NCBI RefSeq assembly: GCF_002551245.1
Contig: NZ_NTGZ01000006.1
Span: 1 to 64,000 of the forward strand
Reading direction: 5' to 3'
DNA: 64,000 nt
Source: Streptomyces sp. rh34
GTDB lineage: Bacteria; Actinomycetota; Actinomycetes; Streptomycetales; Streptomycetaceae
Positions within the stretch are counted from its first letter, which is position 1. Each line of letters begins with the position of its first letter. Under the pieces are notes generated by a model. It saw only the letters and a program-made list of their open reading frames with translations. It did not search any database and was not told where the DNA came from. The translations under genes and the position numbers were made by a program. This document shows, one piece after another, positions 4,501 through 24,861 of the stretch.

Positions 4501-6046
4501 CACGTGACGACAGGAGGTCGCTCCAGCCCGTTTCGATGACTCGCGCGACCAGCCGGACCGTCGCTCGTGCTGATCGGCTCCCGTCGCCAAGGAGGTCCAG
4601 CGTGTCGTACACCTCGACCCGGGCCGGTGCGCCGACACCGTTCTCCTCCCAATCCGACAGCACCTCCCGCCACCTGCCGTCCGGATCTCGCATCGCTCCG
4701 GGCAGCGCGGCGGGCACATCAGCCAGACGGGCGACCTCCTCCTCGGTCACGGCACCTTCGAGTTCTTCGTCCTCCACGGCAAGCGACTCGAGATCGAGGA
4801 GCCCCTCCCCCGGGACCTCCAGGAGCAGCTTCGCGGACACCAGACGCCGGGCGTGGTCGAGCAACCGCTGTTCCATCACGGCAGCCGGATTGTGCCCGTC
4901 ACGGACGCGATCCGGCAGGGGAACAGCACTCCAGGCGTTCACCGGATCCTGCCGGAACTGCCGCAGAACGGCTGCCGTCCACAGATCGGCCACCAAGGGA
5001 ACGAGCGCACGGTTCCACGGGGTTTCGTCGAGCGCCTGCCGGCTGGCGAGCGGGTCGAACTGCGCACTCGTCCAGAGGGCCGGCCCGATCTCCTGAACCG
5101 GCAGACCGACGTGGATCCGTCCGGGACCGCCGTGTCCGAGCGGGAGGGCGACGGCGAGAGTCGTGGTGGGTCCGGCAGCCTTGTGCGCCCTGTCGATGCC
5201 CGAGGGACTGGGCACTGTGGTACGGCACACCAGCCATCGAGTTCCAGTGGACGCGCGGGCGAGGTGCGTCCCCACCTCTGCCGGTCCACCGCCGACCTCG
5301 GCCTCGAAGCCAGGTCCGGGCTCCCGGGATAGAGCGAGCCGGTGCCGGACGCCGCCCTGCGTATCCAGGTGCGTGATGTCGGATACGTGGTCGAGGAAGA
5401 GCAGCGCGCCGGAGGTCCAGGCAGCGAGCCACCCGTCGACGCTCTCCGCGTCAAGCGCACCGGGTGCGAAGGGAACGCGGAGCACGGTCCAGGCGTCGTC
5501 CGCGAACCAGTCGGGTACGACAAGCGGTTCGGCGACGGAGACATAAGGATCGCCGATGCGCACCCGGTAGTGGCCACTGTGCACTTCCAGATGGGGAGAG
5601 AGCGACTGCAGCGTCATCAGCCCGATGCCGAACCGGCCTGTGGATTCGGCTTCGTCCGCCTTGCTGGACAGCCACGGCATGGCCAGGGCCACTACGTCCG
5701 GCAACCGCACCGGGGCACCGTTATGGGCAACAAGAAGGTCTCGCTCCCTGGTGAGGATGCGCACTTCTGAGGCACCGAGATCCTCCGAATTCTGCACGAT
5801 CTCGGACAGGCCCTGCAGTGGATCACTCGAAAGGTTGCCCGCGTGGTCCCGGGTCCGGCCGAAGGCGTGGCGAACCATCCCGGGCAGTGTCGCGAACCGT
5901 TTGCCCAGGTGCTCGACGGCTGCGGCCGTCGCTTCACCGCCCTCCGGCTCCGGTACGGCGTTCGCGTCCCGCATTTTCTCCTGATCGAAGATGCGGTCGG
6001 CGAACCCGACGGCCCGCGCGGCCGCCTTCGTGTCACGCGTTCCCAT
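1502..6046 (-). CDS. Sacsin/Hsp90-like GHKL ATPase with C-terminal DUF3883-like nuclease domain
   Basis: A protein of about 1514 aa. The N-terminal 250 residues carry a GHKL ATP-binding (Bergerat) fold of the sacsin/Hsp90 type: N-box LSEIVQNSEDLGASEV, a G1-like box VAHNGAP and the glycine lid STGRFGIGLMTLQSL. The long centre is unassigned. A low-complexity linker near residues 1330-1430 leads to a C-terminal domain with ELARFYELKTYGG followed by TIQLTPAEFQRA, which fits DUF3883/NO VEIN-type PD-(D/E)xK proteins. I chose ATG 6046 (MGTRDTK), which has a GAGGACC motif upstream; an alternative ATG at 6070 has no visible RBS. It overlaps the end of the pPIWI-RE gene by 14 nt, so it is very likely translated with that operon. 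Known relatives act in anti-phage islands and chaperone-like assemblies. The role here is inferred. Confidence 0.8.
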   Translation of the reverse strand: MGTRDTKAAARAVGFADRIFDQEKMRDANAVPEPEGGEATAAAVEHLGKRFATLPGMVRHAFGRTRDHAGNLSSDPLQGLSEIVQNSEDLGASEVRILTRERDLLVAHNGAPVRLPDVVALAMPWLSSKADEAESTGRFGIGLMTLQSLSPHLEVHSGHYRVRIGDPYVSVAEPLVVPDWFADDAWTVLRVPFAPGALDAESVDGWLAAWTSGALLFLDHVSDITHLDTQGGVRHRLALSREPGPGFEAEVGGGPAEVGTHLARASTGTRWLVCRTTVPSPSGIDRAHKAAGPTTTLAVALPLGHGGPGRIHVGLPVQEIGPALWTSAQFDPLASRQALDETPWNRALVPLVADLWTAAVLRQFRQDPVNAWSAVPLPDRVRDGHNPAAVMEQRLLDHARRLVSAKLLLEVPGEGLLDLESLAVEDEELEGAVTEEEVARLADVPAALPGAMRDPDGRWREVLSDWEENGVGAPARVEVYDTLDLLGDGSRSARATVRLVARVIETGWSDLLSSRDWLVDSSGTQYGMRGSVPVLFAATPRGLGVELGLTREIHPDFLADTDDARSVREWLGKQGVLINDDDPAAVIQRLADFGGARGGAGLVLTDEQLVALRDGFAHVPESRRELWGRKVGLAVRLQGHRYTTDGTREDVEIAPARAYLPSGIDSAEHDESFAFAAGSTSGPAWLRSRYAKVLQGGSTGALRFLRLLGAETAPRPRSCPGQHSRFERGARGLPSYLASGSKARTKALEALRATYTLNDYDCPDLYAVATDIAKDDDSARRRRRAAALLHVLGRSWSRFSAHAEVGAAFDYHTWHDRGRTAALWLWQLREVAWLDDRNGTPSSPFRLRNRTAGTVAVYGDGDAQFLHPDIQEQAHRRIEVLRALDVVGDARPRDLVECLRRLRREEKDGAERNAPGALIVYEALAESVTGSGTSGGSGEMPFSEVLRAFTTGEGLVLTNSGWRRPGECLIGEPLFGASRAFAPVFTGGEAFWTRLGARRPTVDDAVKVIRELAQQDRRERRNVPEGTTQSVVLETLKMLRRPSAVRSEELTAGRLGRLPLVTSKGWLSKRPVYAVEDPMVADGLGRDHAVWRPGAELEQFRPLAGALRLTWIGVEQLSVHSSSVAAHDPDATELVRAAVTHLREDLQRNAPEVARGLDGSWDGLATLTVSVAPDLICRVELSGTPVEVSVDAGVDWASSTLYVRDLSAVNRPSAGGASIATKFPGHRRAAALAWTAACDRAERGRTAVDLSLAEEQVRREQEAAVAERDRRLMEMQEEADRRGRMNGRERRPVAGASSTISGRAPALPAIPHGRDPSVPAVRPPASFRRLVDPATLRLVVDRGNLTAPQSGAGPATGTAPKKGPAGLPQSRPGSAVPQQRTAARPYTAVEQEKAALDLVRRALALDETELRDLRAQHGLGADAVDELARFYELKTYGGAEPDTIQLTPAEFQRAIESDDFFLVVVSGLEAGAAPVTVRIILEPLKHLPYRPSSNVLVSGIRGAQSLVYPFESTE

Positions 6047-8912
6047 GTGCCTGGTCCTCGTCGTCCTCATCGGTGTCGAAGTCGAATGCGAGCTGCCCTG
6101 GGCCGTCTTCGACGCCGGTCCCTACGACCGGCCCCGCTGTCGGGTCCACGGCCTCCTCCTCGTCGTGCGGCAGCGCGTACTCGTCCGCGAGCCGTGCGAG
6201 GTGAAGAGCAAGCGGCAGGCCGAGCACGTCCCGGTAGTCGTCCTTGCAGATGCGCTGTTGGTGGACGAACGCGGCCCATGCCTCGGGGTCGTCGCCGGGC
6301 TGAAGGCAGGCCAGGGTGAGCTCCAGTAGCTCGGGGTTCCACGCGTTCACCGTCGGCCGGTGGGCGCTCCGGCCGGCGGGGTTGACGTGAGGGGTCAGCT
6401 TCGCATCGTCGTTCGTCAACTTCGTCTGTGTGCTCGCCTTGTCCGCCGTGCTGTAGAAGACGCGGCCGGGGGCTCCGGGCTCGTCGGGCACCCACAGTCC
6501 CATGCCGAAGCCGCCCCGCTGTTGCCCGGCCAGCTCTTCCTCGCGCTCCTCCCGTTCCGCCCACCACTGGGGCGTCTCGTCACGGCCGCTGTCAGCGACC
6601 CTGACGACACGAAGGTGCTTGCCGTAGAGACCGATTCGCTGCGCGGGGCCCCCGTCGAGGCCGATCCGATCCACCTCGAGCCCGCCGTTGGTGAGCCACG
6701 GCCAGCGCTTGCGCACGTCTTGTGCGTGGGACAGGACCAAGGTCGGCGTGCCGCGCAGACTCGCCAGGGTCCTCCTGATGAAGGCAGCCGTGACTGCCGA
6801 CTGCTGCGCCGAGGTCCTCAGGTCATTCCCCCGCACTCGTCCGGTCAGGATCCGGAGCAGGTCCGGGTAGGACATCCACTCGGAGGTGTCCGCGGTCCGT
6901 CCGAGGACACATGGTGCGTCCGGCCGGAGCAGCACGGCGATCGGGGTGAACTGTGCCCTGCCCGTGGGACCGTCGACCCGGCGCTCGACCAGATGGAAGG
7001 CCACCTGGTTCAGACCGGAAGGGATGCGATCGCCGAGAGTGTGCTGGGGCACCAGGCGCATCCCGGTCTGACGAAGGCCGTCCGCCCAGGCCGCTTCGGC
7101 CCGCAGGGCAGCGTCCTTCTCGGCGTCAGCCGTGTCCATTGCGGTGTCCAGTGGGCGGATGAACTGGGTGACCAAGCCTGCGTCCGCGCACCCGAGCCGG
7201 ATCGCGTACTTGGGGTCGGTACGCCTCGCGGGACCTTGGAACGCTTCGCTTCCTTCCAGCTCGACAAGGGCGATCCGAGCCCCGGGCACCTGCTCCCTCA
7301 GGCGGGTCATCGCCTCGGCGACCCGTCCGCGCCGCTCACGGATGGCCTGGTCGTGTTCCTGTCCCGCGCGCGGCGGCCGGTCCTCCGCTCCGAGAGGGGA
7401 TCCCAGCTCGCCCAGGGGGTGGGCGTGGAGCCGCACGGTGAGCTCCTCGGCCTCCCACACCCATGTCTCCGGTCCTCGTTCACGCCGAAACTCTGTGAGT
7501 CCGAGCGCGCTCTCGGCGGTGGCGACGAGCCTGTCCCGCTGGTCGTCGGTCTGGTGAACCAGAAAGCCGACGAGATCGGTGCCGTCCAGCGTCGCGGCGA
7601 GCGCCGCACGCCGCACCCGCGCGTTGTCCGCCGCGGTCCGTTCCGTCCGTTCCAGGAGGGCGGCGAGCTCTTCGGCGGTGCCGTTCTTTGGCATGGAGGG
7701 CCGCTTCGTGAGCTGTCTGACAGGCGGGCGACCGTACCGGCTGCGCTGGAGCTTCGGGGCGGGGACGAACTCGGGGGCCAGCGCTTGCTCGGCCCACTCG
7801 ATGAGACGGCGGCGTTCGCTGGGCATCAGTCCGGTCCCGATGGGGTGTCTGCCCATGGCGGCCTGGTGGCCGACCGCCAGCCTGATGCCGTCCTTCCCGT
7901 CCCCGATCCAGTGGTCGGCCTCCTTGACCAGTCGATCCACCGACGGGAGCCCGTCGAGCGCGGCGACGGCGGCGAGCATGCCACTGGGGCCGCCCTGCCT
8001 CCAATCCGTGGTTCCGTTGCGCCACTGCAGCATGGCAACCGAGAGTCGCCGGGACACCGGTGCGTCCGGCACGAGCGAGATCTCTGGCAGTAGGTAGACC
8101 GAGACCCCCTTGCGGAAGGGCATCCAGACCTTTCCGGTGACGAACCGGCGGATTCCCGCGCTGAGGTGAATCCGAGGAACCGGCGAGAACGGGACGGTGC
8201 GCACGCCGACGCGAAGGGTGGCCGCGTAGTACGACGGCTTGCGCTCGCCGCCCCTACCCGCGGGTCGGTATTCGATCGGCGGCCACGACATCAGTTCCGC
8301 GCTGCTGCTTCCGGCGTCGTACCCGCCGCCGGCGCCGGCGACCTGGTGGAAGGTGAGTTGCCGGCCTCCGTGCTCGTAGGCACCCTGACGTGCGATGCGT
8401 GCGGCCAGTTCGTCGGGGAGCAGTCGGTACACCAGACGGGTGGGCTTGGCGGTGCCACCGGGAGAAGGCTGTTGTTCGAGCAGGTCGATGGTGTCTGCGC
8501 GCCAGGTCAGGCTTCCGGTGTCCAGCTCGCGGAAGCACTCCGCGAGCAGACGCCGTGCGTCCGGATCATCGGGATGGCGGGGGAGGTTTCTGAGCCAGGT
8601 GGCGGCGTAGAGGTTGGTCACCGGGGTGGGAAACGGCTCGGTGCAGTAGAGCCAGGGGGAGTCCGTTCCGAAGGTGGCGTTGGACGCCACGGTGACGACG
8701 TCCGGGGCGGTGGTGCGGATCAGCTGGTTGATCTCCCGGGTGGGGATGCGGCGTGGGCCGTGCCATCGGCCTTCCGGCCGGCCATGGTCACGCAGCTGGC
8801 CGAGCGGCTCCTCCCAGTGAGCGGGCAGCGAGAGGGTGTGCCGTAGGACGGGGAAAGGCCCCTGTGTCGGGTCAGGCATGTACGAGGCGGTCCGTACGTG
8901 CTGGTACGCCAT
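6033..8912 (-). CDS. pPIWI-RE family PIWI protein
   Basis: Encodes about 959 aa from ATG 8912 (MAYQHVRTASYMPDP), with AGGAGA about 9 nt upstream. The reading frame is open further upstream but runs antiphase into the helicase gene. The protein has the layout of prokaryotic PIWI proteins with conserved R and E (pPIWI-RE): an N-terminal X-like module, a MID-like middle and a C-terminal RNase H-fold PIWI domain. Family-like blocks include TLVLSHAQDVR, GGPAQRIGLYGKHL, GMGLWVPDEPG and the tail NPELLELTLACLQPGDDPEAW with LPLALHLARLADEYALP. pPIWI-RE proteins are predicted nucleic-acid-guided or R-loop-targeting effectors encoded with a DinG-type helicase and a REase. Both are the next two genes upstream. 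The helicase ends 68 bp before this start. I could not verify catalytic residues by alignment. Confidence 0.85.
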   Translation of the reverse strand: MAYQHVRTASYMPDPTQGPFPVLRHTLSLPAHWEEPLGQLRDHGRPEGRWHGPRRIPTREINQLIRTTAPDVVTVASNATFGTDSPWLYCTEPFPTPVTNLYAATWLRNLPRHPDDPDARRLLAECFRELDTGSLTWRADTIDLLEQQPSPGGTAKPTRLVYRLLPDELAARIARQGAYEHGGRQLTFHQVAGAGGGYDAGSSSAELMSWPPIEYRPAGRGGERKPSYYAATLRVGVRTVPFSPVPRIHLSAGIRRFVTGKVWMPFRKGVSVYLLPEISLVPDAPVSRRLSVAMLQWRNGTTDWRQGGPSGMLAAVAALDGLPSVDRLVKEADHWIGDGKDGIRLAVGHQAAMGRHPIGTGLMPSERRRLIEWAEQALAPEFVPAPKLQRSRYGRPPVRQLTKRPSMPKNGTAEELAALLERTERTAADNARVRRAALAATLDGTDLVGFLVHQTDDQRDRLVATAESALGLTEFRRERGPETWVWEAEELTVRLHAHPLGELGSPLGAEDRPPRAGQEHDQAIRERRGRVAEAMTRLREQVPGARIALVELEGSEAFQGPARRTDPKYAIRLGCADAGLVTQFIRPLDTAMDTADAEKDAALRAEAAWADGLRQTGMRLVPQHTLGDRIPSGLNQVAFHLVERRVDGPTGRAQFTPIAVLLRPDAPCVLGRTADTSEWMSYPDLLRILTGRVRGNDLRTSAQQSAVTAAFIRRTLASLRGTPTLVLSHAQDVRKRWPWLTNGGLEVDRIGLDGGPAQRIGLYGKHLRVVRVADSGRDETPQWWAEREEREEELAGQQRGGFGMGLWVPDEPGAPGRVFYSTADKASTQTKLTNDDAKLTPHVNPAGRSAHRPTVNAWNPELLELTLACLQPGDDPEAWAAFVHQQRICKDDYRDVLGLPLALHLARLADEYALPHDEEEAVDPTAGPVVGTGVEDGPGQLAFDFDTDEDDEDQAHGNA

Positions 8913-8980: not shown

Positions 8981-11900
8981 TCAGCCCATGTCGACGAGGG
9001 CGCGGTAGAGCGGCTCGTACAGCTCGCGGACGAGCGACTTGTCGATCAGAGAGGGTTCCGGCGGAGCTTCGGCACCTTGAGCGACGATGCCGGGCTCGTC
9101 GAAGTAGGGGGCCAGCACGGCGCGCATGCTCGCCAGCAGGCTGGTGTCCGGGGTGTCGACAGCCTCGAATCCCGCCTCGCGGGGTGAGAAGGCGGCGTCC
9201 ACGAAGGCCACCCTGGCAGGCACACCGCCACGTACGAGGCGGCCGATCACCTGCCACATCACGACCAGCTGGTCCCAGGTGAAGGCGACCTTCTCGTCGT
9301 CCCGGAGACTGGACCAGGCCATTCGGCGGGTGAGGTACCGGTTCCACTGGCGGCGGGCGCGACTACGGAACCCGATGGCGGCCTGGTGCGGCGTGGCAGC
9401 CGCGAGCGTCGCCTGTGTGAAGACCCTTCCGGTGTCCCGGAGCTGGCGTACCGCCCAATCGTTGATCGACTGGATGGCGAGGGCGATGTCGTCGGGCCGC
9501 GGGTGGGGCCGGGCGAGGAAGTAGACGCTGCCGATCGCGGCCTTGCCCGTGCTCAGCACGATGTTGTGCCCTCGTTCCACCGCGAGCAGCGGCGCGATCA
9601 GGAGTTCGCCGCCGATCTTCGCGAAGGAGTGCACGTCACCTCGGGTGAGGGTGCGCACCGCGGGGTCCTCCGGCAGCCGGGCCCAGGCGGTGTCGGCGTC
9701 CGCGTCGTCCGAGACGAGCTGGACGACACGGCCGTTCCACTCGGGGATCCCGTTGAGGTACTCGGCCGCGCGCCGCGCCTCGTCGTAGCTGCCGACGAGG
9801 AGCAGGATGCGGCGTCGATCCTGGTCGGGGATCTCGTCCAGCTCGGTGTCGAGCATGCTGGACGCGCCGGGCAGGCTGCGGTCAGGAACCGCGAGCTGCC
9901 GGAGCATCTCGACGAGCGCCTGGGGCCGCTCCTTCGGGGGGCAGCCCGACAGCCGCAGGGGCCGCGGCCCTTCGCTGCCCGGCCAGTGGAGGAACTCCTT
10001 GCGGAACTCGGTGCCGAGGACGGCCTCGACCTCCTCGTCCCGCGGGCGAAGCACGGCTCCCACATCGGCGTGCAGGTGGTACCGGCTGGAAGTGCCGGCC
10101 CAGCTGGTCGCGGACATGAGCAGAACGTGGGGGGCGGGTCGACTGTCCACCCGACACAGGTCGCCCATTCGCATGAGGAGTTCGCGCCCCACACCGTTGC
10201 AGTGGAAGAAGCGCAGCTCACCGCTGCGGTCACCGTCGCGCTCCGAGTCCGTGAGGCGAAACTGGAAGCCGAGGACATTGCCCATCGGTGATTCGGGGAT
10301 GACCGCCTCGTAGTCCTTCGGAGGTCTGCGGGAGAGGACGTTTGACGCATTCTCGAGGTGGAGTGCGGCCTCGACGCGCGGCCACAGGATGGTCATGAAG
10401 TCGAGTCGGCTGTGGAGCGCGGCGAGGAGCAGGGTGAACTCGAAGCGTCGGGCCTGTACGTCGATCCGGTCGAGGACTCCCGAGTCGTGGCCCACGACAG
10501 CCGTGAGGGTGGAGCGGAGCCGTTCCCGGGTGCGGGCGCCCTGGGGGGCGTGGAGCAGTTCGAGGGCCAGGCGGACGAAGGTGTTGACCAAGGGGGTCAC
10601 CTGGTCGCCGTCACCAGTGCTCTCGTGTTCGTGCAGGGGGTCATCCCGGAAACGCAGCAACGCCTCGTCCAGCAGTCGTGCCGCGGGCGGTGGTTGGTCG
10701 CCCGCGTCCCGTCCGGGGAACCAGCTGTCGATCAGCAAGTTGTGCAGGGTGAACGCGCTGAAGTAGTCGACGCTGATCCACTGCCGCAGCTCCCCGTCCT
10801 TGACCAGGAGCGAATAGAGCCGGTCAGTGGCGGCGCTCACGGTGTTGACGGCGTTCGTCCAGTCGTCGACGTCGCGTTCGGACAGCTGGAGCCGCCCGTC
10901 TCGGGCCATCTGTTGGAACTTGTGGACGGCGACCTCGTCGAACCATGAGTTCGGGTAGGTGCCGACGAGGGTGCTGGCCGGGGCGAACACGGTGTCGAGC
11001 TGCATCTGCACGCGGTCCGCCTCGTCGACGATGATCAGGTCGCTGAGTCGGCAGGCGAGTTCCAGGTAACGGATCTGCTCGTCGTGCTGGTGCTGGGGCA
11101 CGGAGCTATGCACCAGCCCGGCAGGGGTCGCAACCCAGACGCGGGCATCGACGAGGTCCCGGGCGCCGCGATGTCTCGGACAGCGGTTCCACAGCGGGCA
11201 CAACTTCCGCTGGGGCTTGGGGCACGACCTTCGGCCGGCCGGGTTCTCCGCTTCGACCAGTGGATCGTCCGGGGTCTCTTCCTGGTCCACAGCGGGGTAC
11301 AGCCCGAGGCACGGGGCTTCCCTGATGCCGAGGGGCCTGCGTGCCTCCATGCCGCGCAGCACGTCCACGGGGCAGGCACTGCTCAGGTATGCGAAGCCGG
11401 GGTGGTCGTGTCCCAGCATGGTGTCGGCGCCCGCCACCGCGGTGCGGCGGTGCAGGCGTCCGATGTTCCGCTCTCGCGTGGAGTGGCCGAGGATGGGTGC
11501 CGCCGCTACCCCGAGCCGCTTGAACAGCTCCACGACGGCCAGGGTTTCGGCGACGTCGCCGACGACCAGGGTGACACGGCGCGACGTCCGAGTGACCAGG
11601 TGGTAGGTGAGGATGTCACGGAGGGTCGACTTGCCCGCACCGACCATGCCGACCAGGTGGAGCAGCTGGTCGATCCTGAGGCGCTCGCCCCGCGTGAACC
11701 GACCGAGGGCCTCGTCCCGGACGAGTAACCGGACACGGCTCAGTCGACCGCGCCATCCGCTTCGGGAGCCACCGATGACCTCCTCCTTCGCGTCCATGGC
11801 TGCGGCCGCCGACTCGAGTTCTTCCCAGGTCACGTCCACGGGTTCCCCGCGCCCGGCGGGTGCCGCGTCGAGGGCGTGCGACCTGGGGAGGGCGCCGAGC

Positions 11901-12427
11901 AGCAGGTCGTCGGTGATCTCGACCGAGTGGAGCCGGTCCTGGGCCCGGAAGGTGTGCTCGCCCGACCCAGCGAGCGGAACACGGCGGGTCGCGAACTCGG
12001 GTCCTGTGGTGAGCAGCCCTTCGAACACCTCGAAACGACGCGCTGCCCGGGCGGGTACGCGTTGACGCGGGACCGCGTCGACGCTTTCGAGGTCGTATCC
12101 GCGCAGCTGCTGCGGCACGCGTAGGTACGACTCCAGCGCTTCAGACCAAGCGTGTCCGCGTCTGAGGACCCACAGGTGGTGGCGGGCGCGCAGGATGCGC
12201 AGCCGCTGTTCGTCGGAGCGGACGTCCCCGAGCGCTTCGCTGTGGGGGTATCCGCCGAGGAGGGGCCACACGTCGAGTGCGGCGCGCGTGGGCGCCACGC
12301 TCTGCAGCAGATAGAGGCCCAGTTCGACGTCGAGGAGATCGGCGACCCGGAACGCACCGAGGTCATCCGGCCATACATCGGTGAGCTGGCGGGAGCAGCG
12401 ACGGTGCCAGCTGCTGCGATCACGCAT
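8981..12427 (-). CDS. DinG/XPD-like helicase of the pPIWI-RE three-gene island
   Basis: A protein of about 1148 aa. An N-terminal region of about 230 residues matches the place of the pPIWI_RE_Z domain. The helicase core follows: Walker A GMVGAGKST, Walker B/DEAD-type VDEADRV, and motif VI MWQVIGRLVRGG near the C-terminus (QxxGRxxR, as in XPD/DinG). Between motifs I and II lies a cysteine set, APCLGLY then SCPKPQRKLCPLWNRC, spaced like the 4Fe-4S cluster of XPD-family 5'-3' helicases. The ATG at 12427 lies within the end of the REase gene (8-nt overlap), indicating translational coupling. In the known three-gene island this helicase is thought to unwind DNA or R-loops for the PIWI protein. 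The exact biochemical role is inferred. Confidence 0.85.
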   Translation of the reverse strand: MRDRSSWHRRCSRQLTDVWPDDLGAFRVADLLDVELGLYLLQSVAPTRAALDVWPLLGGYPHSEALGDVRSDEQRLRILRARHHLWVLRRGHAWSEALESYLRVPQQLRGYDLESVDAVPRQRVPARAARRFEVFEGLLTTGPEFATRRVPLAGSGEHTFRAQDRLHSVEITDDLLLGALPRSHALDAAPAGRGEPVDVTWEELESAAAAMDAKEEVIGGSRSGWRGRLSRVRLLVRDEALGRFTRGERLRIDQLLHLVGMVGAGKSTLRDILTYHLVTRTSRRVTLVVGDVAETLAVVELFKRLGVAAAPILGHSTRERNIGRLHRRTAVAGADTMLGHDHPGFAYLSSACPVDVLRGMEARRPLGIREAPCLGLYPAVDQEETPDDPLVEAENPAGRRSCPKPQRKLCPLWNRCPRHRGARDLVDARVWVATPAGLVHSSVPQHQHDEQIRYLELACRLSDLIIVDEADRVQMQLDTVFAPASTLVGTYPNSWFDEVAVHKFQQMARDGRLQLSERDVDDWTNAVNTVSAATDRLYSLLVKDGELRQWISVDYFSAFTLHNLLIDSWFPGRDAGDQPPPAARLLDEALLRFRDDPLHEHESTGDGDQVTPLVNTFVRLALELLHAPQGARTRERLRSTLTAVVGHDSGVLDRIDVQARRFEFTLLLAALHSRLDFMTILWPRVEAALHLENASNVLSRRPPKDYEAVIPESPMGNVLGFQFRLTDSERDGDRSGELRFFHCNGVGRELLMRMGDLCRVDSRPAPHVLLMSATSWAGTSSRYHLHADVGAVLRPRDEEVEAVLGTEFRKEFLHWPGSEGPRPLRLSGCPPKERPQALVEMLRQLAVPDRSLPGASSMLDTELDEIPDQDRRRILLLVGSYDEARRAAEYLNGIPEWNGRVVQLVSDDADADTAWARLPEDPAVRTLTRGDVHSFAKIGGELLIAPLLAVERGHNIVLSTGKAAIGSVYFLARPHPRPDDIALAIQSINDWAVRQLRDTGRVFTQATLAAATPHQAAIGFRSRARRQWNRYLTRRMAWSSLRDDEKVAFTWDQLVVMWQVIGRLVRGGVPARVAFVDAAFSPREAGFEAVDTPDTSLLASMRAVLAPYFDEPGIVAQGAEAPPEPSLIDKSLVRELYEPLYRALVDMG

Positions 12428-13616
12428 GATGGTCTCCTTGGCGGCGAGGGGATCCGGCGGCTTCCGTCCGGTCGGCGATCTGCTCGGCCACGAGACGCAG
12501 GAAGGTCCGGTCGTCGAGCAGGGTGATGTTCCCTGCCAGATCTTCGGGAAGATTTCGGCGGAACTGTCGTCCGTACGCCTCGTTCTCGCGGAATCGATAG
12601 CGGGGCACGACCAGGAAGGCTCGGTCGAAGGGCGGGTCGGCCCGGAAGCGGGTGAGTGTGCGTGCGAGCAAAACCGGGTTCACCCGGTCCTTGACGTCCA
12701 CGGCCCAGTACCCGCCTCCCGGCAGCGGGACGCGCAAGTCGTACGCGTCGAACTGGGGCCACATCTCGGCGTCGATGCCGAAGCGTCTCTTGAGGGTTGA
12801 CCCGATGTCGTTCTCTGCCAGGCCCGGACTGGTGACGAACATCCGCAGGGGGCGGCTGAGCTGGTGGAGCCCGCTGCGGTCGGGACGTACCGGAACGGGG
12901 ACAGCCGCGGTGGCGTCACGGCGGCAGCGGTCCAGCTCGCAGCGGTGACCTCCGCCGGGCAGTGGCACCATCAGGCAGCGGCAGCGTCCGCACTGCTGGT
13001 ACCCGCCGTCGCGTCGATAGGTCGCAGGGACGGGTTCGTAGCACTGTCTGATGACGTGGTGGAGCAGGAGTCCGCACTCCGGGTCCCCGCCGAGCAGGGC
13101 GAGCTCCGCGCCGGTGAGTACGGGCCGGGTGGTCAGCAGGGACCGGAAGGCGGTGTACGCCGCAGGATCGCCTGCTGCCCGGCATACGGTGAGTGCCTCC
13201 AGCATGCGCTGGTTCTCGAAGATCTCCGCGGCGGGGTCCGCCGCATCCACCTCCCACTCGAGGCAGAGCTGGTGCGGCAGTCTCGTCTGGGGATCCACGA
13301 GCGTGCCGGCGGCCCCACGGGCTTCGGGAGGCAGGTCCAGCGGCCAGCCCGTCAGCGGTCGTTCGCAGGCCCAGCGCACCATCTCGGGAATGCTGCCCGG
13401 CGGTTCGACTCCGTGTCGCAGGCAGTGCAGGACGAGTCGGTTGTAGGCGTTCTGGACCTGGGCCGGATAGATCGGGTGGGGCACGCCGCGCTGCCGGGAC
13501 AGACGGACCAGCGCACTGGCGATCTCCCGGAGCAGGGGTTCGTCCGAGCCCGCGGACGGTCGGGAGACCAGGCCGGATCGGGCTGCCCCGGAGTTCGGTG
13601 GGGTCTGGGTGATCAT
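12420..13616 (-). CDS. pPIWI-RE-associated REase (PD-(D/E)xK, with zinc-ribbon-like insert)
   Basis: Encodes about 398 aa from ATG 13616, which overlaps the upstream stop as ATGA. The N-terminal half is helical and fits the pPIWI_RE_Y associating domain. A central knuckle CGRCRCL...HRCELDRC resembles a zinc-binding ribbon. The C-terminal domain has the nuclease signature FDAYDLRVPLPGGGYWAVDVKD (D, then VDVK), followed by FLVVPRYRFRENEAYGR. This is the REase of the pPIWI-RE three-gene island described by comparative genomics. The core looks catalytically intact: acidic residue, then D-x-K in a short hairpin. The gene is translationally coupled to both neighbours. It probably provides the cutting activity for targets found by the PIWI/helicase pair; that step is inference. 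Confidence 0.85.
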   Translation of the reverse strand: MITQTPPNSGAARSGLVSRPSAGSDEPLLREIASALVRLSRQRGVPHPIYPAQVQNAYNRLVLHCLRHGVEPPGSIPEMVRWACERPLTGWPLDLPPEARGAAGTLVDPQTRLPHQLCLEWEVDAADPAAEIFENQRMLEALTVCRAAGDPAAYTAFRSLLTTRPVLTGAELALLGGDPECGLLLHHVIRQCYEPVPATYRRDGGYQQCGRCRCLMVPLPGGGHRCELDRCRRDATAAVPVPVRPDRSGLHQLSRPLRMFVTSPGLAENDIGSTLKRRFGIDAEMWPQFDAYDLRVPLPGGGYWAVDVKDRVNPVLLARTLTRFRADPPFDRAFLVVPRYRFRENEAYGRQFRRNLPEDLAGNITLLDDRTFLRLVAEQIADRTEAAGSPRRQGDHHA

Positions 13617-15238
13617 GCCTTCTCCTCCGCGTCGGCAGGGGCTTGGGCGCTCGGGCACCACCGCGAGACCGGGCACTGGTGGCAGTGCCCGCCCGGCCGT
13701 GCCTCCCACGCACGGTCCTCCCGCCAGGGGCCGGCGTACCGTTGGAGCACCGCTCGCGCCTTGGCCAGGCGCTCCGCGTCCATCGGGTCGATGACGTGGG
13801 GGTCGGATCCATCGGGACGGAGGACCTCCAGTTCCACCCTCGATCCGGAGGGGTCACCGCCCAGCTCCCCCTGGGCAAGCAGGACGACGGCCAGGGCGAG
13901 CTGCGGATACGCGTCCAACGGATCCTTGCCGATGCGGGCAGGAGTGCGGGTGGTCTTGAGCTCCCGCCATACCCAGGAACCGTCCTCCCTGTAGAGCAGG
14001 TCGGGTTTGGCCACGACCAGCGCCTGGGCCGCCGTGTCGTGAAACACCCGGGTCGGTTCGCATTCGACCCGCTCGATGGCCTCGGGGAGCTGGAAGGGGC
14101 ACGAGTCCACATGCTGCAGGAGCATGGCGCGGCCCGTCTCCGCCTCCTCGTCCGGGACCCTCCACCGGCCGGCGGTCCAGTTCTCCCCCGGCGGGGGCAT
14201 GTCGCCGCGCGTGCAGGGAATGGGGCCGGTGCGGCGGTGGAGCGCCTCGACCCAACCGTGCACGGCCTGGCCGAGCTTGGCCGCGTCGCTGTACTCGCCT
14301 GTTTTCGGCAGGTGCAGGAAGCGCAGCAGGGACTGCGCAGGGCAGGCGGCGTGGTACCTGAGGTCGCTGATGGACACCTTCCGCAGCGGTAACCGGCGGG
14401 AGGACAGTGCCAGTACCCCCGGAGACCGGGGCACCGCCTCACACCCGGTGAACTGCTTGCAGTCGAAGCAGGCCGCCCCGGGGCGCTCCGGACCGCCCCT
14501 GACCACATTCCTCACGTGGGGGCCGCCGTGCGCCTCGTAGTACGCCTTGGCCTCCTCCGCAGTTCCGTCGAACTGAACGGTCCGCGATCCGTCGCCCAGG
14601 CCGATCTCGATGATCCTGACCCTCGCGACGGGCCCGGGAGAGCCGTGGATCACGAACTCCTGGTTCCAGCGGCGCGGCCACGCCGCGTCGGCTCCGAACG
14701 CCGCGGTGTACGCGGCGACCGCGATCTCACCCCGGCTCGACGCACGGGCGTCCCCGTGTCTCAGCCGCCGGTACTCGCGCACCGTGCCGTCGGCCGACTG
14801 GTAGCGGCGCCACCATGCGTAGAGCTCCCAGCGCCGACCATTGTCCTTGCGCACCGCCCAGTACGGCTGGACGGGCACGAAGGCGTCCGGCCCCTGGCTC
14901 GTGTACTGCCGCACCGCGTGCTCCACGTAGGTCCGATGCCCCTCGTGCAGAGCAGGCCGGTGGCCGGACAGGGCTCCGAGCGCCTCGTCCACCGTGGCGC
15001 CGCCGAACTCGATCCGGTCCAGTGCCGCGCACACGGGACCGAGCGTGAAGGTCTCGTGCTCTTCCCGGGGAAGCTGCGACGGCACCCGCGCCCGAAGTCC
15101 TGGCCGGGCCTTCGCCGCGTCGCGGGCCAGGCAGACGTGCGGCTCGTCCGCTCCCCCTCCTGTGCCCGGCCCGATCCGGACCGGCCCCTCGTCCCCCGTC
15201 ATCCACTGCGGCACACGCCACGGCACGTCGCACGTCAT
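13613..15238 (-). CDS. Cas4/RecB-like PD-(D/E)xK Fe-S nuclease
   Basis: 541 aa. ATG 15238 follows GGGAGGGGG. The C-terminal half has an intact RecB/Cas4 site: KPDLLYREDGSWVWRELKTT (PD, then E-x-K) and the downstream Gln motif DAYPQLALA. It is bracketed by a cysteine in HAACPAQ and the triplet CHQCPVSRWC (C-x2-C-x5-C), the AddB/Cas4 Fe-S arrangement. The N-terminal half holds a second C-x2-C-x5-C set, CFDCKQFTGC, which is unusual and may mark a duplicated or vestigial domain. The gene leads the leftward operon and overlaps the REase gene by 4 nt. It faces the divergent operon across 139 bp. It probably degrades or trims DNA ends together with a helicase; the partner could be the SF1 helicase in the divergent operon. 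Confidence 0.75.
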   Translation of the reverse strand: MTCDVPWRVPQWMTGDEGPVRIGPGTGGGADEPHVCLARDAAKARPGLRARVPSQLPREEHETFTLGPVCAALDRIEFGGATVDEALGALSGHRPALHEGHRTYVEHAVRQYTSQGPDAFVPVQPYWAVRKDNGRRWELYAWWRRYQSADGTVREYRRLRHGDARASSRGEIAVAAYTAAFGADAAWPRRWNQEFVIHGSPGPVARVRIIEIGLGDGSRTVQFDGTAEEAKAYYEAHGGPHVRNVVRGGPERPGAACFDCKQFTGCEAVPRSPGVLALSSRRLPLRKVSISDLRYHAACPAQSLLRFLHLPKTGEYSDAAKLGQAVHGWVEALHRRTGPIPCTRGDMPPPGENWTAGRWRVPDEEAETGRAMLLQHVDSCPFQLPEAIERVECEPTRVFHDTAAQALVVAKPDLLYREDGSWVWRELKTTRTPARIGKDPLDAYPQLALAVVLLAQGELGGDPSGSRVELEVLRPDGSDPHVIDPMDAERLAKARAVLQRYAGPWREDRAWEARPGGHCHQCPVSRWCPSAQAPADAEEKA

Positions 15239-15377
15239 GTCGTTCCCCCTCCCGGCCGAAGCACGGAGTTAGACCGGCCGTCGTGAACCCCGAGGCCGTG
15301 CCGCCGAGCGTAGCGCACAACTTTGGAACTCTTTGGAGAAACTTGGAAATCAAAGGGATCGGCGGTACAGTGCGCCC
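15239..15377. promoter_or_regulatory. Divergent promoter region with phased direct repeats
   Basis: This 139-bp interval separates the two outward-facing operons and must hold both promoters. It contains CTTTGGA at 15321, CTTTGGA again at 15331 and CTTGGA at 15342, spaced 10 and 11 bp, that is, on one face of the helix. This AT-richer island stands out from the GC-rich surroundings. It sits about 35-55 bp before the start of the rightward gene, a typical operator position. The nearby wHTH-like protein is a candidate binder. No convincing -10/-35 pair was assigned. Confidence 0.6.
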
Positions 15378-16277
15378 ATGACCGCATCGCTGGAGGAGCT
15401 CGAGGAACGCCTGTCGCGCCTGCGCGCCCTCCTGCGAGAGGCTCGACGCGCCCGCGACAACGCGGCCACCGCCCGCATCCGCGCCGAACTGCGCGAGGCG
15501 GAGGCCGCGTGGGAGCAAGCCCTCGACGCCGAGGAGGCGGAGGGGGCCGCGCCACCTGCCGCGGCTCCTTCCTCACCCGCCGGGTCCCCGGCACCTGCCA
15601 CCACCGCCGGGACCGCATCCTCGTTCCGGCTCCAGGCCCACGGGAAGCAGTCCACCCACGGCGCCGTCCCGGTCCGCGAGCAGGTGCACCAGGCACTCAC
15701 CCTGCTCGGCGCTCCCGCGTCGCCCAAGCTGATCTCATCCGTATACCAGGCCTTCTTCACCGAGCCGCTGGTCGCGACGAAACTCGCCTCCCTCCGCCGG
15801 GACGAGGAAAGGTCCTTCACCGCACAGGGCTACGCCCGCCCCTACTACATCTGTGCCGCCCTCACCCACGACCGGCTCACACCCGCCCGCGGTCTCCTCG
15901 CCGTATCCGTCTGGCCCCTGGAGCAGCGCATCGTCGGCCCACTGAGCCCGCGTGCCGACTTCCTTGTCCACGCCATCGGCACCGCCGAGCAGATCCTGCG
16001 GCTCGACGTCGCCGGGCACGCGCCCTCCGGCGCAGCCCGCCAACTGTTGCGCCGTTTCGCGCTCAACATCCCCGGCGCGTACGACGACGAGGAAATCGAC
16101 CCCGAACGCGTGATCTCCGCAGCACGCACGGAGGCCGCAGTGCACCAGGAGGCGGACTACTCCCTACGTCGCACGACCGCCGACCGCGCACGCGGCCAAC
16201 TCACAGAAGTACAGCAGCTCTTCGGGGCCCCGCCCCTGCACGATGCCCTGCGCGGTTCAGCCGGCTTCACCATCTGA
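15378..16277 (+). CDS. Coiled-coil protein with winged-helix-like domain
   Basis: 299 aa from ATG 15378. Residues 1-50 form a charged coiled coil (MTASLEELEERLSRLRALL). A proline/alanine linker follows to about 90, then a domain starting VREQVHQALTLLGAPASPKLI with SVYQAFF and RRDEERSF, which looks like a winged helix in which LASLRRDEERSF could be the recognition region. The C-terminal half is unassigned. It is the first gene of the rightward operon, and the phased repeats lie just upstream. It may therefore autoregulate, or act as the DNA-sensing or dimerising component of the system. I do not recognise a named family. Confidence 0.6.
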   Translation: MTASLEELEERLSRLRALLREARRARDNAATARIRAELREAEAAWEQALDAEEAEGAAPPAAAPSSPAGSPAPATTAGTASSFRLQAHGKQSTHGAVPVREQVHQALTLLGAPASPKLISSVYQAFFTEPLVATKLASLRRDEERSFTAQGYARPYYICAALTHDRLTPARGLLAVSVWPLEQRIVGPLSPRADFLVHAIGTAEQILRLDVAGHAPSGAARQLLRRFALNIPGAYDDEEIDPERVISAARTEAAVHQEADYSLRRTTADRARGQLTEVQQLFGAPPLHDALRGSAGFTI

Positions 16278-16330
16278 CCGACTACCGGATTCCTCCGGTG
16301 CCGCCACAGAATTCCGCGTAAGAAGAGAAG

Positions 16331-17455
16331 ATGCCTCCGCAGCACCCCTCTCCCCCCTCTCCGGGAAGGCTCGCCGTCCTGCGCGGACCGCGGCCCCCGC
16401 AGGAGTACACGGCACGCAAGATCACCGCCCTCACGGCCAACCCGGCCTGCTCCCGCCGCGCCGTACTCGACGCAGCGGGCGTGGACAAGGCGTTGCTCGC
16501 CCAACGCCTTGGCCATGAGCCGCGTTTCGGCCAGTCCCCCTTCGCGATCCGGCGCGAGCAGAGCTTCGAGGCCCTGGTCAAATGGGGCGGCTACGCGGAG
16601 CTCATCCGCCTGCTCCGGGAGCAACTCGACGTCCCCGTCGAGGAAGCCGCGGTAGCCGATCTGACCGAGGTGGGCGGCGACACTTCGCTCGCGGTGCGGG
16701 CGGGCGAGAGTCGGCGGCTTCTGAACCGCCTGGCGGCCGGCGCCGACGAGCGGCTGATTCTGGACCGCCCCGTCCTGACCCTGGAGGTCGCCGGTCAGAC
16801 CGCCCACGTGATACCGCAAGCCCTCAGCCACCGCACCGGCGGACGGTTCTACGTGGTGGAGATCCGCTCCTTCCCGGCCATCGACGGCCAGGCGAACCCC
16901 TCGGCGGTCGCCCAGACCACGAAACAGGCCGCGGTCAGCGTCCTCGCCCTGCGACAGACCTTCACCGAACTCGGCCTCGATCCCAAGGCGATCGCCCACA
17001 GGTTCCTTCTCATCTGCCCTAAGGACTTCTCCAACCGGCCCTACGGAAAGCTGATCGACCTCCGCCAGGAACTCGATGCCCTGCGGTTCCAGTTATCGCG
17101 TCTGCGCCGGGCCGAAGACCTGGCCCACGCCCTCTCTCCCGACGCGACGCTCGACGCCGAACGGCCGAAGGCCGAGATCGACGCCACGATGCGGGAGCTG
17201 GACGCAAGCTTCACCCCCGACTGCCTCTCGTTCTGCGAGATGTCCCGCTACTGCCGGGACGAGGCCACTGACTGCGCCTCCCCGGCCCGACTGGGTGGAG
17301 TGGTGCGCAACAGTCTTCCCGGCATCGACTCCACCCGGACCGCCCTCCGCCACCTCGACGGCACCAGCGCCCCGGGCCCCGCCGAGGAGGCGGTCATCAT
17401 CCGGCTGCGGGCCGCCGAACGACTCCGTCGACTGCGTGGAGGTGCGACCGCGTGA
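16331..17455 (+). CDS. Cas4-like Fe-S protein with degenerate nuclease site
   Basis: 374 aa, starting 53 bp after the preceding gene. It has the cysteine layout of Cas4/AddB proteins: NPACSRRAVL near residue 38 and, near the C-terminus, CLSFCEMSRYC followed by DC. The region that should hold the nuclease site reads VIPQALSHRTGGRFYVVEIRSF. The usual PD is PQ and the usual E-x-K is E-x-R, so two of the standard catalytic positions are changed. A Gln-containing helix (VAQTTKQAAV) follows. It may be a structural or DNA-binding partner of the intact nuclease at 13613-15238. The stop overlaps the next gene's GTG by 4 nt. Confidence 0.65.
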   Translation: MPPQHPSPPSPGRLAVLRGPRPPQEYTARKITALTANPACSRRAVLDAAGVDKALLAQRLGHEPRFGQSPFAIRREQSFEALVKWGGYAELIRLLREQLDVPVEEAAVADLTEVGGDTSLAVRAGESRRLLNRLAAGADERLILDRPVLTLEVAGQTAHVIPQALSHRTGGRFYVVEIRSFPAIDGQANPSAVAQTTKQAAVSVLALRQTFTELGLDPKAIAHRFLLICPKDFSNRPYGKLIDLRQELDALRFQLSRLRRAEDLAHALSPDATLDAERPKAEIDATMRELDASFTPDCLSFCEMSRYCRDEATDCASPARLGGVVRNSLPGIDSTRTALRHLDGTSAPGPAEEAVIIRLRAAERLRRLRGGATA

Positions 17456-18963
17456 GCGTCATCGCCACGGTGGCCGCCCTGCGGGCATCCACGTCGGAAT
17501 ACGCCGAGCGGCTGACGACCGTGCGCCACGAGCATGTGGACGACACCCCGTTCGTCCTCATCCCGCTCACCCTCGCCGGCGAGGCCTGCGCGCCACTCGC
17601 AGCTCTCGCCGGGACGGATCCCGACCACCCGGCGCTTCTGACGGTTCGCCGCCCCCACGACCGAACCGAGCGCTTCGGCTTCGTCGAGAGCCTCGCGGAC
17701 CTCCTCCTGCCCTACTTCGAGGAATGCCGCGCCGCGCCGAAAGAGCCGTACACGGTCGGGCGCGGCAAGGATAAGGAGGAGCGGGAGCGGCCCCTGCGCG
17801 CACCCCAGCTCCTCGTCCCGAACGCTGGGGGGATCACGTACGTCCGGCTGCTGGGCCGTCTGACCCGGCTGCGCGCGACAGATGGTCCACATGCCGTCTC
17901 CCCATCCGTACCCCTGCTCGGAAAGTGGCTGACCTGGTTCGCCGACCGGGCCGAGTTCCCGGATTCCGCCCTGCTCCAGGCCATGACGCGGTCCCTCTCT
18001 GCCCACTGGGCCACCGGGCAGAGCCCCACCGAGAACGCGAACCTGGCGTCCCTGCTCGGCTGGATCGATCCCCCCGCCGGATGCACCGGGGCCGAGACCG
18101 CCCGGGAGCGCGAAGACCCCGCGGCGTGGCCGCCCGCCGGGCCGACGACCGACCCGGTCTTCGACCGCACGCTCGACGAACTGATCACGAAGTACAACGG
18201 CGCAACCGGAGAGCGGGCGCGGGACGCCGCCGCTCGCACCATCGACCGCGAGCTGCACGCCCAGATGCTGCCGACCTGGCAGCTGATGTGGCACGGCGTC
18301 CGCCTGTTGCGCGAGCTTCCCGCAGGGGACCACGTCGCCGAACGGCGGGCATACGACCGGCGTCTGTTCGGCGAGTACGCGACCTATCTGGACGATGACG
18401 GGCGCCCACAGGCCCGCCGCGATCACGCGGTGGGCGCAGCCCGCCGCCTCGCCCGTATGGAGGAGGCCCAGGAGCGGTACGACGCCGAGCGCGCGTATGA
18501 CGATCCGCTGGTGATGGCGGAGTACGAACTGACGGGCGAGGCGTTCACGGGCGTGGTCACGGCCCGGGAGGAAGAGCGCACCATCCCCGGGGCGCGGCCC
18601 GGATCCCCTCTGTGGCGCCCGACGATCACCGTGCACTGCGAAATTCCCGTGTCCATGGCGGCGGGAACGGCGGTCAAGTCCCCGGCAAGACCGAGGCAGA
18701 AGGCCGAGATCCTAGACGTCGCCCCCGACGGAGCCGGGTCCGCCGTGCTGATCCAGCTGAACGGCGGCTTCGGCAACAAGCGCAAGCCGCCCGCGCCTGA
18801 GGGGACCATGGCCGACCTCGGCGAGACGATCACCTTCACGTCGATCGATCCCAAGAACATGCCGTCCTCGCTCCCGGCTGAGGAGGACACCCCCTGGACC
18901 CACGGCGGTCCGCCACAGCCGTACGAACCCACCGACGAGGACGCGGAAGAGGTCTGGGAATGA
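17452..18963 (+). CDS. Unrecognised 503-aa protein of the divergent operon
   Basis: The GTG at 17452 overlaps the preceding stop by 4 nt, and its own stop overlaps the next ATG by 4 nt, so it is clearly part of the operon. I do not recognise a family. It has a conserved-looking N-terminus (VAALRASTSEYAERLTTV), a helical and charged centre around residues 250-360, and a C-terminal beta-rich part with ILDVAPDGAGSAVLIQLNGG followed by GNKRKPP. It ends in an acidic tail. No Walker, nuclease or membrane signature is visible. Its fixed position between the Cas4-like and SF1 helicase genes suggests a subunit of that complex. Confidence 0.7.
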   Translation: MSVIATVAALRASTSEYAERLTTVRHEHVDDTPFVLIPLTLAGEACAPLAALAGTDPDHPALLTVRRPHDRTERFGFVESLADLLLPYFEECRAAPKEPYTVGRGKDKEERERPLRAPQLLVPNAGGITYVRLLGRLTRLRATDGPHAVSPSVPLLGKWLTWFADRAEFPDSALLQAMTRSLSAHWATGQSPTENANLASLLGWIDPPAGCTGAETAREREDPAAWPPAGPTTDPVFDRTLDELITKYNGATGERARDAAARTIDRELHAQMLPTWQLMWHGVRLLRELPAGDHVAERRAYDRRLFGEYATYLDDDGRPQARRDHAVGAARRLARMEEAQERYDAERAYDDPLVMAEYELTGEAFTGVVTAREEERTIPGARPGSPLWRPTITVHCEIPVSMAAGTAVKSPARPRQKAEILDVAPDGAGSAVLIQLNGGFGNKRKPPAPEGTMADLGETITFTSIDPKNMPSSLPAEEDTPWTHGGPPQPYEPTDEDAEEVWE

Positions 18964-24000: not shown

Positions 24001-24861
24001 TTCCTGGAGGGCTTCGATTGCCGCGTCCAGGTCCGATAGAATACCTTTCTCTGCGAACTTGCTCTGCAGCGCGGCGCCCAGATTGTTGAGTCCGCCAGCC
24101 CGGTGGGCGGGGGAGCCCGCGGCCGCTTGGACTGCCAATCGGGCGATCTCGATCGCATCGTCCAGGTCCGCCGCCGTACCGCGATGGGTGAAGCGCCCCC
24201 TCAACATGCCTGACAGGTTGGACAGCATGACCGGCTGGTTAGGATGCCCCGTCGCCACGCTCTCCACTGCGCCCAAGGCAGCGTCAATCGCCGCTTCCAA
24301 ATCCGCTGATTCGCAACCTGTGTCAAAGTGGGATTTCAGGATGACGGAAAGATTGGACAGAGTTTCCGCGTGCTCGCTTTCTCCGCGGGGCACAGCTGCC
24401 GCGATGCGCCGCAGGAGATCGGCGAATCTTGAGCGCAGCTCCGGGCTCGGCGAAGCGTTCATCTTTTGCTGGATCCTCCAGGCAAAGCCAAGCGCTCGCT
24501 CAGCTACATCTGGAAGCAGCTCGTCCGGCAGGTCTTCCTCATCCGCGCCTAACACGAAACAGGGCGTGAACTTCGTGACGGCCTCCTGTCTGTCCCGTTG
24601 GCCGGCTCCTTCGGGAAGTGCTCGGTACCTGAAGGCGTGCAACCAACCGAGGGCGTAATGCCCTTCCAGGTCGGCCTCATCATCTCGGAGTATCGCGGCG
24701 AGTTGGCGAGCTTCCACCAGTGCTTCTGGCTCTAGCACCACGCCAAGGTCCTGCTCGCGAGAAAGCCGGTCCAACCGTAACCCGACTACGGCAATCCGCT
24801 GCTCCAGTTCGTGTTCCCTTGTGAAGTCCTGATCACGCCCCTGCGTGAACCGTCCTGTCAC
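21046..24861 (-). CDS. TPR repeat protein with C-terminal CHAT (caspase-fold) protease domain
   Basis: 1271 aa from GTG 24861 (GGAG 12 nt upstream). Residues 150 to about 700 are many degenerate TPR units of the form HPxRxxxLxNLGxxLxxRFExTG followed by DLDxAI. The C-terminal 350 residues form a CHAT domain. The catalytic His is in GIVHFACHGAHDPDD and the catalytic Cys in QLAYLSACRTAFMG, followed by the typical AFQLAGFPRVIGTLWEINDE. CHAT proteases are caspase-related effectors in bacterial conflict and cell-death systems. The TPR array probably senses a partner or trigger. A 227-bp gap separates it from the upstream membrane-protein gene on the same strand, so it may have its own promoter. Confidence 0.9.
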   Translation of the reverse strand: MTGRFTQGRDQDFTREHELEQRIAVVGLRLDRLSREQDLGVVLEPEALVEARQLAAILRDDEADLEGHYALGWLHAFRYRALPEGAGQRDRQEAVTKFTPCFVLGADEEDLPDELLPDVAERALGFAWRIQQKMNASPSPELRSRFADLLRRIAAAVPRGESEHAETLSNLSVILKSHFDTGCESADLEAAIDAALGAVESVATGHPNQPVMLSNLSGMLRGRFTHRGTAADLDDAIEIARLAVQAAAGSPAHRAGGLNNLGAALQSKFAEKGILSDLDAAIEALQEASDLIVDDHEKAGVLHNLGNAWRARYENTGASADLENAMECCQAAIETAPEEHPGRSRFLYGLGDIALTRFERTGEAVHLDQSVNVLAEALEILPPGHRARGLRLSGLGRALLARYRLGGDSLDLDAAIETNRAASREIAPQQIEFNAVINNLATSLWQRFERTGHMVDLDEAISVSRASAQATAEGHVDRPTRLSNVGLMLWTRFKHTGASSDLDAAVEFAHGAVKTAPRAHSALAAMLSNLGAVLLQRYERNGDLEDLDEVIRGNREVLMVVDASNPDRPRFLANLCTALHARFQRTGGFGDLDGAVVAGRDATATVPFQHPERPRYLSLLGGVLASRFEQTGSIADLDQAVVACQAALDMSPAEHPERADYLFQLATALHSRYQRTHSRHDFDDALAAHVEGARAEGSRPSIRIRAAQAAASMTGRSDPDLAADLLTTAVHLLPEVADRRLSRGDQQHAMGKWSGLAGDAAALALASREGTPADRSSRAMQLIEVGRGVLHSQALDMRSDLAELRERHPDLAHRFEVLRDELDRPLDSTSLTEPDGQASATLRAVDAAEQRRSRADQLHATLGNIRAQDGFASFARHPALSELLAQAAPGPVVSFNVSRYRSDALLLTSDGIESLNLPDLTYDLVIDQIQTFHRALETVADPRMSPLRRKEAQATLHAVLEWLWDAAAEPVLRSLGFTGEPSPGRSWPRVWWAPGGLLSLLPLHAAGHHSESLRADSRAGEPPTVMDRVVSSYTTTIRALHHARRHQTSAPSVSRSLIVAMPTTPGVQGRLAHVSEEAALLCDLLPEPTLLMAPGAEADGMTVPGPDARPTKARVLKALSDSGIVHFACHGAHDPDDPSQSLLLLHDHERDPLTVASLAGMKMDSAQLAYLSACRTAFMGSAELIDEAIHLTSAFQLAGFPRVIGTLWEINDEVASHIAADFYAELGGCTDQHGGLDTDEAARALHHAVRKVRDRYPKSPYLWAAHLHAGI

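Follow-up and report, generated by a model that had tools for sequence, protein, structure and literature searches.

The closest described relative of the locus analysed here is the three-gene pPIWI-RE system (Burroughs et al. 2013, PMC3702460), in which a REase gene is followed by the genes for a DinG-like helicase and for the pPIWI-RE protein itself; by word count, the words Cas4 and RecB are absent from the main text of that paper, and PADLOC already holds a model named PprPDDEXK. A pPIWI-RE protein of Pseudomonas stutzeri has been described as both an RNA-guided DNA nuclease and a DNA-guided RNA nuclease in vitro (PMC10991935). A Cas4-type protein adjoining a PIWI protein, as found here, is also seen in the Argonaute-associated Cas4 proteins (ACE1) of pAgo operons (PMC6299218), although our locus differs from these in having pPIWI-RE and two Cas4-type proteins, one of them apparently dead. 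Dna2 carries an Fe-S Cas4-type nuclease fold, a barrel and an SF1 motor in a single chain with an active nuclease. AddAB and RecBCD likewise bring a Cas4/RecB-type nuclease fold together with a helicase; both nucleases of AddAB are active, while RecB and RecC form an active/inactive pair in which RecC is the inactive, nuclease-like subunit.

Within the stretch of Streptomyces DNA that was analysed (the window; 64,000 nucleotides), Pfam and PADLOC identify a pPIWI-RE island on the minus strand, consisting of PprPDDEXK (here called Cas4a), PprRE, PprDinG and pPIWI-RE (Table 1). The REase (Y and REase domains), DinG (Z domain) and pPIWI-RE genes follow one another in overlapping or closely spaced order, and the pPIWI-RE protein possesses its X, MID and RNase H domains, so that both the order and the domains are those of the described system. 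Facing the island on the plus strand is a second operon, here called the module, which encodes p314, Cas4b, p503 and an SF1 helicase in that order. The open-licence literature yielded no title or abstract describing this module, which is weak evidence of absence. The first-pass annotation of this DNA had placed an intact and a degenerate Cas4-like protein on either side of a divergent promoter, and had suggested that they act as an active/inactive nuclease pair comparable in logic to AddA/AddB, possibly driven by the SF1 helicase. Both reading frames are real, but Cas4b does not lie directly at the gap, being the second gene of its operon behind p314, and the promoter is deduced from gene orientation only, since a consensus scan of positions 15150-15450 found no sigma-70-type site. 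At the window's left edge (2-1363, minus strand), PADLOC recognises the type II Wadjet component JetA (E 6e-255). A 1271-aa protein encoded at 21046-24861 (minus strand), which has no PADLOC match, ends in a C-terminus that we take, by eye, to resemble a CHAT protease.

Table 1. Genes of the pPIWI-RE island, its TmtA-like neighbour, the facing module and the gap between the operons (positions in the window).
Feature	Position	Strand	Basis
TmtA-like protein with sacsin-type ATPase domain; adjoins the island, right after pPIWI-RE; possible member of the system	1502..6070	-	PADLOC and model matches
pPIWI-RE protein: X, MID, RNase H domains	6033..8912	-	Pfam, PADLOC; start from codon-usage gene call
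PprDinG: DinG-like helicase with pPIWI_RE_Z	8981..12427	-	Pfam, PADLOC
PprRE: pPIWI_RE_Y and REase	12420..13616	-	Pfam, PADLOC; start from codon-usage gene call
Cas4a (PprPDDEXK), 541 aa: Cas4/RecB-type Fe-S nuclease, site intact	13613..15238	-	Pfam, PADLOC, alignment
Divergent gap between the two operons; putative promoter region	15239..15377	.	ORF positions
p314: opens the module; belongs to no known family	15378..16277	+	Homologues near Cas4b; weak Pfam and PDB matches only
Cas4b, 374 aa: Cas4/RecB fold, Fe-S cysteines, catalytic site apparently lost (PQ ... EIR)	16331..17455	+	
p503: predicted family-B-polymerase-exonuclease-like fold (~31-300) and beta-barrel (~356-465)	17452..18963	+	
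SF1 helicase, UPF1/Dna2 type, 447 aa	18960..20303	+	Pfam; Dna2 sequence match; ATGA overlap

The 541-aa protein keeps the PD, E-L-K and Gln motifs, as the annotation had it. Cas4a matches PDDEXK_1 in Pfam (E 6e-21) and PprPDDEXK in PADLOC (E 6e-102), and its D, E-x-K, Gln and four cysteines are conserved in 33/33 sequences; the motif-I position is occupied by H in 20 of these and by D in 13. Four further cysteines (C36, C257, C260 and C266), N-terminal to the nuclease domain, are also invariant in all 33 and possibly form a second Fe-S or zinc site.

The description of the 374-aa protein was likewise accurate: Cas4b has P162-Q163, E177-I178-R179, Q199 and the Fe-S cysteines C40, C298, C302 and C308, and so lacks the complete catalytic D, E, K set of an active Cas4/RecB-type nuclease. 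None of the Pfam nuclease models picks up Cas4b itself, but PDDEXK_1 matches 5/39 members of its alignment (best E 0.001). The PADLOC Cas4 model is touched by 3/39 relatives (E 0.026 or worse). The predicted model (pLDDT 89.4, pTM 0.82) is a confident Cas4/RecB-type fold, which matches Cas4 (Z 9.8, 197 aligned residues, 4.5 A), RecB (8.2) and the nuclease region of Dna2 (6.3), together with lambda-type exonuclease, AddA and AddB, the whole set spanning Z 9.8 to 6.2; ACE1 structures were among the matches as well. As this model is accompanied by four cysteines kept in 101/101 aligned sequences, the motif pattern is more than a chance resemblance. An hmmsearch of Cas4b against solved structures returned three matches; their nature (designed repeat proteins, a viral envelopment protein) led us to judge them chance.

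A Cas4b homologue is present in 281 of the 293 genomes of the order. Close orthologues (69% identity or more) are found in 12 genomes, and in 10 of these they adjoin Cas4a and PprRE; the remaining matches among those listed are 40-47% identical. A search across the phylum was positive in 10/198 genomes, of which eight belong to the genus of the window, and a phage search gave no match. In a scan of named genomes, from which the best 80 of 329 relatives were kept, the closest relatives of the module were those of Streptomyces. We aligned 101 sequences, leaving out one of the 80 named loci (L156), in which Cas4b was uncalled, and built a tree of 98 rows after dropping three identical ones. Beyond the window, gene calls come from a simple script based on codon usage, and their starts are rough.

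This tree revealed 24 rows, all from Streptomyces, in which the catalytic lysine has become arginine, and in 23 of these the Asp or the Glu has changed as well: 14 read PD-LIR and five PQ-EIR, with PH-EIR, PE-EIR, PD-EIR, PD-AIR and PD-VIR found once each. They form a single clade, into which 23 rows are joined strongly (100/98) and one, L104, weakly (88/40); long branches were flagged in the tree. Nineteen of the 24 lie beside Cas4a and pPIWI-RE and five elsewhere (L012, L090, L103, L104 and L105). Among the remaining 74 rows D, E and K are intact in 68, and the six exceptions are L108 and five Streptosporangiaceae rows forming one sub-clade (L115, L131, L134, L142 and L165, with the sites PS, PA, PR, AIK and AIK among them), whose sister, L135, keeps the site; no Cas4a was seen in the flanks of these five, although in L165 the upstream flank of Cas4b spans just 0.6 kb. 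The PQ singled out by the annotation is thus not a conserved trait, being present in 5/24 rows, whereas the K-to-R change is found in 24/24; homologues with a standard site, which the annotation had named as counting against its proposal, do exist, in the wider family (68/74 rows) and not among the direct orthologues. Taken together, the 24-row clade and the six other changed rows show that the loss of the site is real and has happened elsewhere too; in the window's Streptomyces lineage it is most simply read as one main event. A strict tie of the loss to pPIWI-RE was considered and rejected, given the dead copies found in other contexts and the separate changes in L115, L131, L142, L134, L165 and L108.

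Could Cas4b nevertheless be catalytic, with an unusual site in which R replaces K, so that the word dead is wrong? The lysine is variable in some PD-(D/E)XK enzymes, and L104 differs from its intact relatives at the site by the K-to-R change alone, which need not kill every enzyme of this kind. Purifying selection on Cas4b is normal: across 11 module-bearing loci its median pairwise dN/dS is 0.209 (54 pairs), compared with 0.198 for Cas4a, 0.208 for p503 and 0.196 for the SF1 helicase (55 pairs each), and these like values indicate that Cas4b is maintained as well as the intact Cas4a. Against this stand the changes of Asp (to Q, H or E) or Glu (to L, V or A) in 23/24 rows, and this variety, which is what would be expected of lost constraint, makes continued catalysis most improbable.

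We then asked whether Cas4a and Cas4b are a pair. The REase domain of pPIWI-RE systems occurs at 60 places in 57/293 genomes of the order, and the module is found at ten of these places. Of the other 50, we fetched the 40 strongest; Cas4a is present in 18/40, and in 0/18 of these is Cas4b among the listed neighbours. Conversely, five genomes carry a dead Cas4b that lies outside any pPIWI-RE island; a Cas4a match (E 0.001) is absent from four of them, the fifth (L105) having a distant one (34%). Among the six genomes with other changed sites, a Cas4a relative lies elsewhere in those of L108, L134, L142 and L165 (37-39%); no match was found in those of L115 and L131, nor in two genomes with an intact site (L106 and L107). 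A profile comparison of Cas4a with Cas4b was non-significant.

Some of these data favour a pair of active and inactive nucleases with the SF1 helicase as its driver: the two genes flank one divergent gap in 19/24 rows, Cas4a is intact in 33/33 sequences while Cas4b is dead in 24/24 rows, and a Cas4a relative accompanies the changed site at a distance in four of the six further genomes and in L105. Because Cas4a often stands without Cas4b beside it, and because dead Cas4b occurs in genomes without a Cas4a match, we nonetheless consider it unlikely that Cas4b is a dedicated silent partner of Cas4a, and the driven pair as a whole, which also has the non-significant profile similarity against it, is distinctly unlikely. 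So, of the proposed pairing, the contrast of intact and dead sites holds, but the dedication is not supported, with the two genes apart in 18/40 and 5/24 cases. The comparison with AddA/AddB was misplaced, RecB/RecC being the apt example of an active/inactive pair; moreover, unlike AddAB and RecBCD, the module has its nuclease fold and its motor on separate chains, and the constant pairing of two nuclease-bearing subunits that marks AddAB is not seen across loci. A facultative contact between Cas4a and Cas4b may still occur, and in the Streptosporangiaceae sub-clade a Cas4a-type partner may act from a distance in three of the five genomes.

The suggested connection to the SF1 helicase fared better, at least for Cas4b, which is tied to the helicase by its own operon. 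Cas4b and p503 overlap by four bases (GTGA), as do p503 and the helicase (ATGA), and the Cas4b-p503-SF1 trio recurs in unchanged order in 8/8 core loci opened (L031-L033, L239, L240 and L242-L244); no fused version was found in six loci opened, and the core Cas4b sequences that were aligned read EPD...EIK. Within the module, the helicase alone scores above the curated Pfam cut-offs (AAA_30, AAA_11, AAA_12 and AAA_19), and none of the PADLOC models fits p314, Cas4b or p503 well. A p314 homologue was called near Cas4b in most named loci, and those marked as lacking it may merely have it uncalled; none was found in the core loci L031-L033.

The predicted model of p503 (pLDDT 89.9, pTM 0.88) has two recognisable parts. 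Its N-terminal part resembles a family-B DNA polymerase in the exonuclease domain (Z up to 10.0, 182 residues, 3.5 A). Enzymes of that family carry Asp and Glu on the first strand; p503 of the window has no acidic residue there, and an invariant E44 lies just behind it. The barrel that follows matches IGHMBP2 (Z 9.0, 132 aligned residues, 6.3 A), SETX (8.6, 88, 3.1 A) and Sen1 (8.0, 83, 2.4 A). It also matches Dna2 461-569 (Z 7.2, 97 aligned residues, 2.5 A), a score tied with those of unrelated barrels from an H/ACA RNP protein, an ATP synthase and a ribosomal protein (Z 7.0-7.3); values under 8 can reflect a common arrangement, and the barrel is a common fold. Foldseek gave no match to p503 at E 0.001 or better, and hmmsearch against solved structures gave none.

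The 447-aa helicase has a UPF1/Dna2-type SF1 core, and its sole match among the sequences of solved structures is Dna2 648-802 (E 6e-4, passing as a whole sequence only). An OB-fold on a helical stalk has been described as typical of UPF1/DNA2-like helicases (PMC11090510). Cas4b, p503 and the helicase thus fall in order on Dna2 (20-408, 461-569 and 648-802, respectively), which suggests a split Dna2-like complex; there is moderate evidence that the last three operon members resemble the Dna2 nuclease, barrel and helicase in order. The module shares with Dna2 the Fe-S Cas4-type nuclease fold and the SF1 motor, with a putative counterpart of the barrel between them, and differs from it in having three ORFs in place of one chain, a site lost in this lineage, an additional exonuclease-like domain and a barrel match that is moderate. 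We also considered Cas4b and p503 as relatives of the TM0106 RecB-like family (TIGR03491) and found no support for this: there was no match to the model, and in a profile comparison only the helicase matched, Cas4b and p503 being non-significant.

Our tentative reading, put at somewhat short of an even chance, makes Cas4b the Fe-S subunit, with a Cas4 fold, of a four-gene module in its own right, which would be a split Dna2-type nuclease-helicase whose nuclease site is dead in this lineage. Spread over three chains, Cas4b would provide the nuclease fold, p503 the barrel and an extra exonuclease-like domain, and the SF1 helicase the motor. In the window's Streptomyces lineage the nuclease site has apparently died, while the protein keeps its fold and its Fe-S cysteines and stays under purifying selection. 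Cas4b would now bind DNA, holding or splitting it for the motor; it probably grips DNA for the helicase. The module as a whole would open or resect foreign DNA, and cutting would be left to its neighbours, here Cas4a, REase and pPIWI-RE, and elsewhere proteins of Mre11/Rad50 type. If the Dna2-like reading is true, a widespread Streptomyces operon gains a likely role in DNA-end processing. The case is testable: a nuclease may have been turned into a structural Fe-S DNA-binding subunit, and relatives with an intact site are available for direct comparison.

The surroundings of Cas4a bear on what the module does in these islands. A gene for a DNA adenine (N6-)methyltransferase is found in 18/18 Cas4a islands without the module (L168-L185) and in 0/19 with it, the latter count including the whole window, while elsewhere the pPIWI-side flanks are mostly filled by the island itself. 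A Pfam check of called neighbours covered two methyltransferases and one kinase. L169 has a protein kinase gene between the methyltransferase gene and Cas4a. The exclusion perhaps reflects a single replacement event, since the module-bearing islands make up one side of one weakly supported branch of the Cas4a tree (SH-aLRT 55). Standing near Cas4a where related islands carry the methyltransferase, the module may have supplanted a modification-based component of the pPIWI-RE system. One place in the pPIWI-RE islands would then have two alternative companions, as these data suggest, a methyltransferase or a helicase module, the latter being an unannotated addition to islands whose biological role is hardly known.

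The mutual exclusion with the methyltransferase gene, the position beside Cas4a in 19/24 rows and the main split shared by the Cas4a and Cas4b trees all weigh against a further view, in which the module works on its own in defence or repair and merely shares a defence island with pPIWI-RE. That view, which we regard as somewhat doubtful, draws on the near-universal presence of the homologue in the order (281/293 genomes), on the many loci without any reference partner called in their flanks, and on the other company that the module keeps, be it Mre11/Rad50-like genes, Wadjet genes or the cas genes of a type I-E system. The association with SbcD/SbcC-like (Mre11/Rad50-like) genes accounts for 22 tree rows, and the Cas4b site is intact in 22/22. 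Joining these contexts to the split Dna2-like reading gives a broader proposal, which as a whole is unlikely: an undescribed split Dna2-like nuclease-helicase of filamentous actinomycetes, with a three-gene core in nearly all Streptomyces and four-gene duplicates that include p314, would join Mre11/Rad50-like, pPIWI-RE and other effectors; with pPIWI-RE it would replace the methyltransferase, its own nuclease would die, and the Fe-S protein would become a pure DNA grip. If this were true, the choice between self and non-self in pPIWI-RE islands would pass from methylation to DNA-end processing.

Wadjet-like genes, often together with SbcCD-like ones, are found near the module on two Streptomyces plasmids (L251 and L252) and in 15 of the best 80 named loci, two of which (L130 and L149) have a JetC-like match only; on the two plasmids, its relatives go by the annotations hypothetical protein and AAA ATPase. 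In one genome (L048:5248-9828) the module faces several genes, one of which codes for an HSP70 protein that has a Zc3h12a-like NYN RNase domain. In Kitasatospora sp. A2-31 (L106:9042-21143), type I-E cas genes, those for Cas3 and Cas8e among them, follow directly after a module with an intact Cas4b site.
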